Shown: positions 6,637 to 12,127 of the stretch, one piece after another | How positions within the stretch are numbered: position 1 is the stretch's first letter | Layout of the letters: every line of letters starts with the position of its first letter | Source: Ruminococcus sp. | Lineage (GTDB): Bacteria; Bacillota; Clostridia; Oscillospirales; Ruminococcaceae | Length of the DNA: 64,000 nucleotides | Assembly: GCA_017626015.1 (NCBI GenBank) | Contig: JAGAJO010000001.1 | Span: forward strand, 124,001 to 188,000 | Reading direction: 5' to 3' | Translations under genes and position numbers: made by a program | The notes under the pieces: generated by a model | The model's input: the letters and a program-made list of their open reading frames with translations, nothing else | Database searches by the model: none | What the model was told of the DNA's origin: nothing

Positions 6637-6665
6637 ATTATATCACTTTCATGTGCTTATGTCAA
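6637..6665 (-). promoter_or_regulatory. Promoter of mnmE-mnmG
   Basis: Minus-strand TTGACA (6660-6665), 17-bp spacer, TATAAT (6637-6642): full consensus for the housekeeping sigma factor, about 40 bp before the mnmE start. Confidence 0.88.
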
Positions 6666-6747
6666 ACCCGATAAATAAAAAAAGTCCGTATAAAACGAAC
6701 ATTTTCAAGGTCAGTTCATAGAACGTCAAAAGTCTTTGTTATCGTCA

Positions 6748-6776
6748 TTGACATCTGAATAAAAGTATGCTATAAT
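6748..6776 (+). promoter_or_regulatory. Promoter of the antisense (antitoxin) RNA
   Basis: TTGACA (6748-6753), 17-bp spacer, TATAAT (6771-6776) on the plus strand: a perfect consensus promoter with no plus-strand protein gene downstream. It fires toward the 3' end of the small toxin-like gene on the minus strand. Confidence 0.85.
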
Positions 6777-6782
6777 TAGTTT

Positions 6783-6895
6783 AACAAAAAGGGTGCCGTG
6801 CAATGCCTTACGGCAGGGCGGCTATCTCCCTTGGTTTTAAGTGTTTAAGAAACACCGTTAACTTTGGAAGAGTGGGGCGGTGTTTCTTATTGTTT
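6783..6895 (+). ncRNA. Candidate antisense antitoxin RNA (RatA-like)
   Basis: Predicted short RNA starting about 7 bases after the TATAAT at 6771-6776 and ending after the hairpin AAGAAACACCG (6847-6857) with CGGTGTTTCTT (6878-6888), which is followed by a weak T-rich tail. A second hairpin, TGCCGT...ACGGCA, lies near its 5' end. It runs convergent to the toxin-like mRNA and would be complementary to that mRNA's 3' untranslated part without reaching the stop codon at 6908. This layout matches the TxpA/RatA type I family. The exact ends are inferred. Confidence 0.65.
6791..6812 (-). terminator. Probable terminator of the toxin-like mRNA
   Basis: On the minus strand TGCCGT, a 10-base loop, ACGGCA, then CCC and a run of five Ts. 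It is placed so that the toxin mRNA would overlap almost the whole antisense RNA. Confidence 0.5.
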
Positions 6896-6907
6896 ATGTA
6901 AGAAACT

Positions 6908-6997
6908 CTATTTTTTCTTATGAAATATAAGATAGCATAGAGAGATAATGCCGGTAAGCATAGAAACGAATAAAAACATATCCGGATATGTAACCAT
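6908..6997 (-). CDS. Small hydrophobic peptide, candidate type I toxin (holin-like/TxpA-type)
   Basis: A 29-residue peptide beginning MVTYPDMFLFVSML and ending LIFHKKK: a short polar start, one predicted membrane helix (about residues 7-25) and a lysine tail. This is the build of Fst/TxpA/holin-like type I toxins, which insert in the inner membrane. The Shine-Dalgarno GGAGGTGAT is very strong but lies in the hairpin CTCCC-GAAA-GGGAG, so translation should be masked until the mRNA is processed or remodelled. A near-consensus minus-strand promoter lies at 7066-7094, and an antisense RNA promoter fires from the other side. Toxicity is inferred from architecture and was not tested. Confidence 0.75.
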   Translation of the reverse strand: MVTYPDMFLFVSMLTGIISLCYLIFHKKK

Positions 6998-7002
6998 TAT
7001 TA

Positions 7003-7021
7003 TCACCTCCCTTTCGGGAGA
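7003..7021 (-). promoter_or_regulatory. SD-sequestering hairpin in the toxin mRNA leader
   Basis: Minus-strand CTCCC-GAAA-GGGAG, a GNRA-type loop, directly overlaps the GGAGG Shine-Dalgarno of the 29-residue peptide gene. Many type I toxin mRNAs carry such 5' translation locks. Confidence 0.7.
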
Positions 7022-7065
7022 AGCCGCCTTTTTACCGTCGTTTTTTCACAGTACCCATGTTTTGT

Positions 7066-7094
7066 ATTATACCATTTTCTTTAAATAATATCAA
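7066..7094 (-). promoter_or_regulatory. Promoter of the toxin-like gene
   Basis: Minus-strand TTGATA (7089-7094), 17-bp spacer, TATAAT (7066-7071). The predicted start gives a leader of about 60 bases containing the SD-masking hairpin. Confidence 0.82.
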
Positions 7095-7095
7095 C

Positions 7096-7126
7096 AAAAA
7101 ATCCGCACTCCCGTAAAAGTGCGGAT
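7096..7126 (-). terminator. Terminator after jag
   Basis: ATCCGCACT (7101-7109) pairs with AGTGCGGAT (7118-7126); the minus strand continues into a T-rich tail. It closes the rpmH-jag gene string just before the toxin promoter, so the toxin is insulated from that operon. Confidence 0.82.
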
Positions 7127-7133
7127 TTTTTTA

Positions 7134-10753: not shown

Positions 10754-12127
10754 ATGGAGTCCTTTAACGAAGTATTTTCGGAGGTGCTGAAATACTGTTA
10801 CAGTCTTACAAACGAGCATAAGATAAGCGAGCAGGGCTATAACAGATGGATAAAGGTGCTTGAACCTTATAAGCTTGAAAACAACACTGCGTATCTTCTG
10901 GCGGAATCAGATTTTGTAAAAACTACCGCCCTCAACGCATACGGCGATGCCATAAAAGAAGCCTTTGCATATGTGCTGGGCTTTGACGTTGATCTTAAAA
11001 TTCTGGTAAAATCAAAAAACAATTCCGTGGAGCAGGACGAAGCTCAGATCGAGATAAAAACGGCTGATTTTTCCGAGGACGCAAAAAACAGCCTTACCTT
11101 TGATAATTTCATAAAGGGAAAATCCAACGAGCTTGCATACGCTTTCTGCATCGCTGTTGCAAACAAATACGACAAAAACGGCGACGGAAAGGATACGGAT
11201 CCCAACAAGGTTTTCAATCCTCTGATAATTTACGGAGATTCGGGGCTTGGAAAAACTCATCTTATGAAGGCTATCGAGCATGACGTAAGAAAAAAGAATC
11301 CGGAGCTTAAGATCATTTACACCACAGGAGAATCCTTTATAAACGAGCTTGTCAAGGCTCTTGAATTCAAAGATACCATAAGATTTCATGAAAAATACAG
11401 AAACGCAGATTTCCTGCTGGTAGACGACATTCAGACTATTGCCGGAAAGGACCGTATGCAGGAGGAATTTTTCCATACCTTCAACGATCTTTACAATGCC
11501 GGAAAGCAGATAGTGCTTACATCCGATATAGCTCCCTCAAAAATTTCAAAGCTTCAGAACAGGATTCTCAACAGATTTTCTCTCGGCGTGCAGGTTGACG
11601 TGACTGTGCCTGACTTTGAAACGAGAATGGCTATAGTCAAGAGAAAGGCGGAGCTTCTGGATCTTAAGCTTTCAGACAGCATAGCAAGGATCATTGCCGA
11701 AAAGATCAAAACCAACATACGTCAGCTTGAGGGGACAGTAAACAAAATAAAGGCTCTTACGATGTATACAAACGAAAGTCCGTCAATATCAATGGCTCAG
11801 CGGGTCATCAAGGAGATAATCATTGAAAATCACCCGGCGGAGATCACTGTTGACAGAATACTCAATGAGATAGCGACCGCTTTCGACATTACCGCAGACG
11901 ATATAAAATCCAATCACAGACACGCAAATATCTCCCTTGCAAGAAAAATTGCAATTTACGTTCTTAAGGACGTAAAGGGAATGACATATACCGAAATAGG
12001 CGAAGCTCTGAACAAGAACCACTCGACTATGACTATCCATTATAAGTATGTTGAAAATCTGCTTAAGGAAAACAGTCAGCTTAAGGAAACCGTTGACGAT
12101 ATTATAAAAAATCTTAAGGAAAGATAA
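10754..12127 (+). CDS. dnaA: Chromosomal replication initiator DnaA
   Basis: AAA+ ATPase of 457 residues that binds DnaA boxes and opens the origin. Domain I is at about 1-85. The AAA+ core starts near 130, with Walker A GDSGLGKTH at 161-169 and Walker B FLLVDD at 220-225, then a sensor region. DNA-binding domain IV is about 360-457. The major-groove motif, GRDHTTV in E. coli and B. subtilis, reads N420-K-N-H-S-T-M426 and appears one residue shorter upstream; this is a real departure in the box-reading helix. CCGGAGG precedes the ATG. It stands at the expected place between rpmH and dnaN. Confidence 0.98.
   Translation: MESFNEVFSEVLKYCYSLTNEHKISEQGYNRWIKVLEPYKLENNTAYLLAESDFVKTTALNAYGDAIKEAFAYVLGFDVDLKILVKSKNNSVEQDEAQIEIKTADFSEDAKNSLTFDNFIKGKSNELAYAFCIAVANKYDKNGDGKDTDPNKVFNPLIIYGDSGLGKTHLMKAIEHDVRKKNPELKIIYTTGESFINELVKALEFKDTIRFHEKYRNADFLLVDDIQTIAGKDRMQEEFFHTFNDLYNAGKQIVLTSDIAPSKISKLQNRILNRFSLGVQVDVTVPDFETRMAIVKRKAELLDLKLSDSIARIIAEKIKTNIRQLEGTVNKIKALTMYTNESPSISMAQRVIKEIIIENHPAEITVDRILNEIATAFDITADDIKSNHRHANISLARKIAIYVLKDVKGMTYTEIGEALNKNHSTMTIHYKYVENLLKENSQLKETVDDIIKNLKER

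Follow-up and report, generated by a model that had tools for sequence, protein, structure and literature searches.

A putative Hol_Tox-like type I toxin-antitoxin cassette in Ruminococcus with a toxin mRNA leader complementary to its own 3′ tail

Several described type I toxin-antitoxin systems resemble the cassette reported here, and the comparisons below follow the parts of the cited papers that were accessible. In TxpA/RatA, BsrE/SR5, and BsrG/SR4 of Bacillus subtilis, toxin mRNA and antisense RNA pair at their 3′ ends over 100–140 bp, the Shine-Dalgarno sequence (SD) lies within 4–5 GC pairs, and binding of SR4 at the 3′ end of the BsrG mRNA lengthens the stem that locks the SD (PMC6562991). 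The Gram-positive par/Fst system (RNA I/RNA II) likewise consists of convergent RNAs with a 3′ overlap and a small peptide, and it contains the direct repeats DRa and DRb (PMC4147584). In hok/Sok and AapA/IsoA, the 5′ and 3′ ends of the toxin mRNA pair, the full-length message is locked, and trimming activates it (PMC6733600). The CD2517.1/RCd8 group of Clostridioides difficile comprises convergent type I systems with a hydrophobic peptide, a lysine-rich tail, and prophage copies (PMC6563280); prophages often carry the type I systems of Bacillus and C. difficile (PMC3531473, PMC6563280).

The cassette lies in a 64-kb stretch of Ruminococcus sp. DNA (the window, 64,000 nt, to which all positions refer unless a locus is named). 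On the minus strand, a promoter (TTGATA-17-TATAAT, with the extended −10 TG; 7066–7094) precedes a predicted toxin mRNA of approximately 274 nt (6786–7059), whose ends were placed by the promoter and by a CCC-T5 run. The mRNA contains an SD hairpin (7002–7020) formed by CTCCC (7020–7016), GAAA, and GGGAG (7011–7007) and continuing into the SD GGGAGGTGAT. This is followed by a 29-codon open reading frame (6997–6908, stop codon TAG included) that encodes the hydrophobic peptide MVTYPDMFLFVSMLTGIISLCYLIFHKKK, probably a membrane peptide, with a KKK tail. On the plus strand, a promoter (TTGACA-17-TATAAT, also with the extended −10 TG; 6748–6776) precedes a predicted antisense RNA antitoxin of about 105–115 nt (6783–6890, ends likewise predicted), which is the complement of the 3′ part of the mRNA. 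Its terminator hairpin (6846–6889, TAAGAAACACCG...CGGTGTTTCTTA) has TTTGG in the loop and 12 of 12 pairs in the stem (6846–6857/6878–6889). A hairpin terminator in the gap to jag (7096–7131) was scored as terminator-like on both strands, and the terminator scan placed a terminator-like hairpin on the minus strand in the gap to mnmE (6684–6700). The identities of the MnmE, Jag, and DnaA neighbors were confirmed with Pfam, and dnaA starts at 10754, approximately 3.7 kb away. A first-pass annotation, made from the letters alone, had described a cassette near the origin, between mnmE and jag, with this peptide and its lysine tail, the strong SD in its hairpin, both promoters, an antisense RNA of about 110 bases ending in a hairpin, and flanking terminators; we located all of these parts, the antisense RNA as a prediction. 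Its comparison with TxpA/RatA was correct for the layout, in which the RNAs overlap at the 3′ end (PMC3531473, PMC6562991, available parts).

The promoter pair was exceptional within the window. With a 17-base spacer, 11 sites reached 11/12 or more, and the cassette pair was the only convergent pair 200–500 bases apart. Thirty first-order simulations gave a mean of 0.33 such promoter sites and no convergent pair. The −10 regions of the two cassette promoters form an inverted repeat with each other. Across the family, 82 of the 91 parsed elements had an antisense promoter scoring 10/12 or higher (best site within the stretch searched); this promoter was better than the best upstream mRNA promoter in 63 of the 91 and worse in 6, as a type I antitoxin would require. 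Both predicted RNAs folded more stably than shuffled sequences (mRNA, MFE −85.4 kcal/mol, z = −6.1; antisense RNA, −41.8 kcal/mol, z = −3.6). In 49 of 77 elements, the predicted antisense RNA contained TTTG past position 50, a raw count over a stretch that includes some complement of the coding strand. This fits the YUNR loop motif, which has been linked with fast RNA contacts (PMC6562991, available part).

A small hydrophobic peptide gene with its own promoter and an mRNA-overlapping antisense gene with promoter and terminator are thus present at the sequence level, and by this predicted layout the cassette belongs to the type I toxin-antitoxin systems. The type I interpretation of the first-pass annotation is supported in these terms, and we consider it very probable that the cassette is a Hol_Tox-like system in which the mRNA of a hydrophobic peptide is silenced by an antisense RNA overlapping its 3′ end. 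The minus-strand promoter would produce an mRNA of about 275 nt encoding the 29-residue peptide, and the plus-strand promoter, which is nearer to consensus, an antisense RNA some 110 nt long. This RNA would silence the message by forming a duplex with the 3′ part of the mRNA, and the duplex would, by analogy with TxpA/RatA, be a substrate for RNase III. We infer toxicity, RNase III decay, and the trigger from known systems. The 3′-end overlap and the paired SD are shared with TxpA/RatA, BsrE/SR5, and BsrG/SR4, and the convergent 3′-overlapping layout with a small peptide is shared with par/Fst, insofar as the available parts of the sources describe them. The CD2517.1/RCd8 toxins, compared by the description in the available part of the source, have 34–53 amino acids versus 29 residues here (PMC6563280). 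None of the RNAs in the window reached the gathering score of an Rfam family (BsrG, 12.8 bits against a cut-off of 55), and no match at the gathering score was found among the RNAs of the 16 loci tested (of 86).

The main addition made here concerns architecture: leader and 3′ tail of the toxin mRNA are complementary to each other, and the antisense RNA starts as a near copy of that leader. In the window, folding and comparison delimited two leader arms, GGGTACTGTG (7047–7056, minus strand; predicted partner, the 3′ end of the mRNA) and GGCGGCTTCTCCC (7016–7028, minus strand), the second of which contains the anti-SD CTCCC. They can pair with two arms of the 3′ tail that the first-pass annotation had missed, CACGGCACCC (6791–6800, minus strand, followed by T5) and GGGAGATAGCCGCC (approximately 6817–6830, minus strand), the latter being an alternative partner for the anti-SD. 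When both promoters of each element were lined up, the start of the antisense RNA resembled the start of the toxin mRNA; examples of the shared start are GGGTACTG in the genus and GGCACTACC, GGCGCAGCC, and GGAACTGCCGC elsewhere. Leader and antisense leader were 84% identical over 38 nt (mean across the aligned stretches). As the antisense RNA is transcribed opposite the mRNA tail, this near identity means that leader and tail of one message can base-pair. The par/Fst system uses the direct repeats DRa and DRb, according to the available part of its description, whereas in the present cassette the antitoxin's copy of the toxin leader is inverted. A search of the window for repeats like DRa/DRb yielded two weak direct-repeat families, neither of which links the mRNA leader with the antisense RNA.

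Of 95 elements found, 91 had enough flanking sequence, 84 of these passed the filters for E, promoter, and distance, and 77 remained after the removal of near copies. In these 77 nonredundant elements, the duplex between a leader and its own tail averaged −56.3 kcal/mol, compared with −43.5 kcal/mol for noncognate tails. The own-tail sum (−4335) was far below the permutation mean (−3359, sd 47; lowest of 10,000 permutations, −3539). The own tail ranked first in 24 of the 77 elements and within the top three in 41. Transition departures from complementarity between the arms should be equally divided between G.U and A.C in a DNA-level inverted repeat, whereas pairing as RNA should produce an excess of G.U. 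We observed 168 G.U and 60 A.C departures (129 and 58 when each sequence context was counted once); 50 elements leaned toward G.U, 6 leaned toward A.C, and 21 were tied. This bias argues for RNA pairing rather than a repeat at the DNA level. In 38 sister pairs, own combinations beat swapped combinations 27 to 10, yet the margin shrank to 11 to 8 among the 20 closest pairs, so shared ancestry was only partly removed. Taken together, the results suggest that leader and tail of the toxin mRNA have co-evolved to pair. The window copy itself showed one G.U and three A.C departures, opposite to the family bias. Its arms, which contain mismatches and a gap, were not returned by a gapless repeat finder run on the window. 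The pairing of this copy is therefore based on folding and on the rank of its own tail, which was the best partner of its leader among all 77 tails.

Leader/tail pairing was also found in ordinary Hol_Tox (PF16935) loci belonging to other families within the phylum, which likewise encode a short hydrophobic peptide with a basic tail. Of 30 such loci, 28 were parsed and 26 entered the duplex test, in which own pairing again exceeded noncognate pairing (own-tail sum −1219 versus −981, sd 31; minimum among 5000 permutations, −1093). The pairing is therefore not peculiar to the new family. Conserved leader/tail complementarity might serve as a signature by which such cassettes could be detected from sequence even where toxin homology is lacking. 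A literature search, with subscription papers mostly outside its coverage, returned no paper on this cassette family in Ruminococcus. The T1TAdb database reportedly records the mRNA and antisense RNA structures of known loci, and leader/tail pairing may be noted there.

Folding of 54 of the 77 mRNAs, with the SD picked by a crude pattern, predicted a panhandle between leader and 3′ tail in 51. No panhandle is described for TxpA/RatA, BsrE/SR5, or BsrG/SR4 in the available part of their account (PMC6562991), whereas one is predicted for the window cassette. Mean SD accessibility in these 54 mRNAs, under the same crude pattern, was 0.24 at full length and 0.18 with the tail blocked; 19 were more open at full length by more than 0.05 and 1 was less open. 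The SD was thus mostly paired in either state and its accessibility nearly flat, and an SD switch operating throughout the family was not supported. In a compact form of the cassette, which is mostly from Ruminococcus, the anti-SD CTCCC has two candidate partners, the adjacent SD or GGGAG in the tail. With a strict SD pattern (12 mRNAs, 4 candidates skipped), anti-SD/tail pairing was predicted at P > 0.5 in 10 of the 12 full-length compact mRNAs. Their mean SD accessibility was 0.19 at full length, 0.05 with the tail blocked, and 0.05 with shuffled tails. Blocking of the tail lowered accessibility by more than 0.05 in 9 of the 12, and no reverse case was observed. The window copy showed the same direction (0.22 at full length versus 0.12 with the tail blocked). 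In its closest relative (L004), anti-SD/tail pairing was 0.21 and the switch was not predicted, and in one of the 12 (L104) the pairing was nil. An anti-SD switch would therefore be limited to the compact form at most, and its predicted effect is modest.

Under the preferred type I reading, a local hairpin would lock the SD and the mRNA leader would form a panhandle with the 3′ tail. In the compact copies, the modeled panhandle would draw the anti-SD off the SD; capture of the tail by the antisense RNA would then return the anti-SD to the SD, and translation would stop. Besides providing a substrate for RNase III, the antisense RNA could in this way act on the ribosome site from a distance and close it, which is what the accessible part of PMC6562991 describes for BsrG/SR4. 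We tentatively propose a toxin-antitoxin design in which the antitoxin starts as a copy of the toxin leader and competes for the mRNA tail, the tail opening the message and the antitoxin closing it. Pairing of this kind would be general in the Hol_Tox cassettes of the phylum and previously undescribed, with the switch as a refinement of the compact form. The cassette offers a simple, testable model of a 3′-end-binding antitoxin that acts on translation.

The best-surviving alternative is that the cassette works as hok or AapA1 does, with an inert full-length mRNA whose translation needs 3′ trimming. The long-distance 5′–3′ pairing is of the same kind as in those systems, as far as the accessible part of PMC6733600 describes it; the duplex, G.U, and folding tests all point to ends that co-evolved for pairing, and the mRNA fold is very stable. 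However, end pairing that hides the SD at full length is the opposite of what folding predicts for this family: the tail would loosen the SD lock, since blocking it left the SD more locked in the 12 compact mRNAs and since, among the 54 mRNAs, those more open at full length outnumbered the less open 19 to 1. We regard this alternative as doubtful.

The peptide frame is a gene, as seen from its copies, its profile matches, and its substitution pattern. In 113 non-independent peptide pairs, pN was 0.16 and pS was 0.51 (ratio 0.32, versus 0.92 in a shifted frame), which indicates purifying selection on the frame. K or R made up two or more of the four C-terminal residues in 71 of 77 peptides. The kinship with Hol_Tox suggested by the first-pass annotation held for the family but not for the window peptide alone. 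The window peptide had no Pfam family above cut-off, including the Hol_Tox gathering score, and no NCBIfam match; it weakly matched a functionally uncharacterized phage family (E = 0.005). A Hol_Tox search of its own genome returned nothing at E ≤ 0.001. Two of seven relatives tested passed the Hol_Tox cut-off of 23.3 (32.5 and 24.5 bits), and PF16935 was matched by 19 of 48 family members at E ≤ 0.01, an E threshold rather than the gathering cut-off. In a profile–profile comparison, the family and ordinary Hol_Tox peptides matched weakly (70.8%, 14 columns). For these alignments, 48 of 67 distinct family peptides and 22 of 28 Hol_Tox loci were used, near copies and odd rows having been dropped by hand. 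By these matches the peptide family is Hol_Tox-related.

The first-pass annotation had named peptide sequences absent from or broken in close relatives as evidence against the cassette. This was not seen in that form, as 4 of the 28 other genomes of the genus carried an intact relative, each with a facing promoter pair. In the other 24, no relative was found at E ≤ 0.1, as would be the case for an accessory cassette. The relatives search matched 11 of 100 genomes at E ≤ 0.1 (own genome included; the weakest doubtful). A peptide profile matched 66 of 394 sampled genomes from the order (E ≤ 0.01; own included; the weakest doubtful) and 18 of 299 genomes of a phylum sample at E ≤ 0.001 (own included). 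A close-alignment scan of named genomes gave 19 loci, mostly from assemblies labeled Ruminococcus or Ruminococcaceae, several of which have rumen in their titles, and one from Blautia. The short L018 peptide had no match in plasmid and phage records at E ≤ 1, and a scan of viral contigs gave one locus. According to the accessible part of a review, few Clostridial species yielded known type I toxins when searched by homology on a large scale, leaving aside the C. difficile toxins, which were discovered separately (PMC6563280). In contrast, the present family, with its matches in one-sixth of the sampled genomes of the order, is often multi-copy and sometimes tandem.

The window genome carries three copies of the cassette in all. 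The second is flanked by 2-hydroxyacid dehydrogenase and NUDIX genes. The third (L003; G000:C22, 1270–1353) is embedded in the head module of a prophage, where its neighbors are a minor head protein gene and a small phage gene of unknown function that is itself beside a head-tail adaptor gene; in this location it resembles the prophage-borne type I systems of Bacillus and C. difficile, as the accessible sources describe them. Copies at the same site in related Ruminococcus, for which the first-pass annotation had proposed a search, did not emerge: at one or more mnmE loci from each of 29 genomes of the genus (flanks of up to 1.5 kb), jag was detected beside mnmE only in the window genome and in G001 (L136), whose mnmE–jag gap reads as empty. 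The mnmE/jag site is not conserved, and the cassette is an accessory element whose proximity to the origin is incidental. Tandem arrays were observed at L085 (509–1593), where a 338-bp unit is repeated 3.2 times with 94% matches. Copies were spaced 342–358 bp apart in G374, G242, G383, and G157, and spacings were longer in other genomes.

We call the peptide a putative toxin on the basis of family resemblance and layout only, and for this reason it might instead be a regulatory or membrane micro-protein that is not a toxin, or might serve the regulation of mnmE or jag. This is improbable, given that the gene has its own promoter and flanking terminator-like hairpins, that the antisense layout and tandem multiplicity speak against it, and that the link with mnmE and jag is missing elsewhere in the genus. 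Least probable is that the cassette is a small mobile element bounded by terminal inverted repeats, in which leader and tail would match as a DNA-level repeat for transposition or as the trace of an inverted duplication rather than through RNA pairing: dispersed and tandem copies, the near identity of leader and antisense leader, and the inverted repeat of the −10 regions in the window would agree with it, but the excess of G.U over A.C, with shared ancestry partly removed, does not.

Several minor observations concern the cassettes and their surroundings. An 8-codon leader open reading frame in the window (ATG at 7058, before the SD) was rejected as a candidate, being absent by eye from the leaders of L002, L004, L005, and L014. 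In L004 and L007, the first cassette is directly followed, on the coding strand of its toxin, by a second one with a similar leader and a different, Hol_Tox-like peptide. In L004 this second peptide (MSVTEVLTLLLLITNIVALVVTICNNKKK) scored 19.5 bits with Hol_Tox, under the cut-off, and the toxin is preceded by the apparent end of another cassette (by eye). A truncated toxin start (MVTYSDLFYYSQFF...) near an intact copy in L015 (1288, minus-strand offset) resembles a decayed cassette. Upstream of mnmE in G003 (L110, 1974–2168) a 107-bp unit is repeated in tandem (1.8 copies, 79% matches), with no obvious relation to the cassette. The perfect mnmE promoter of the window (6637–6665) and its surroundings are recognizable by eye in G014 (L108), where the gene upstream of the promoter differs and has the opposite strand.
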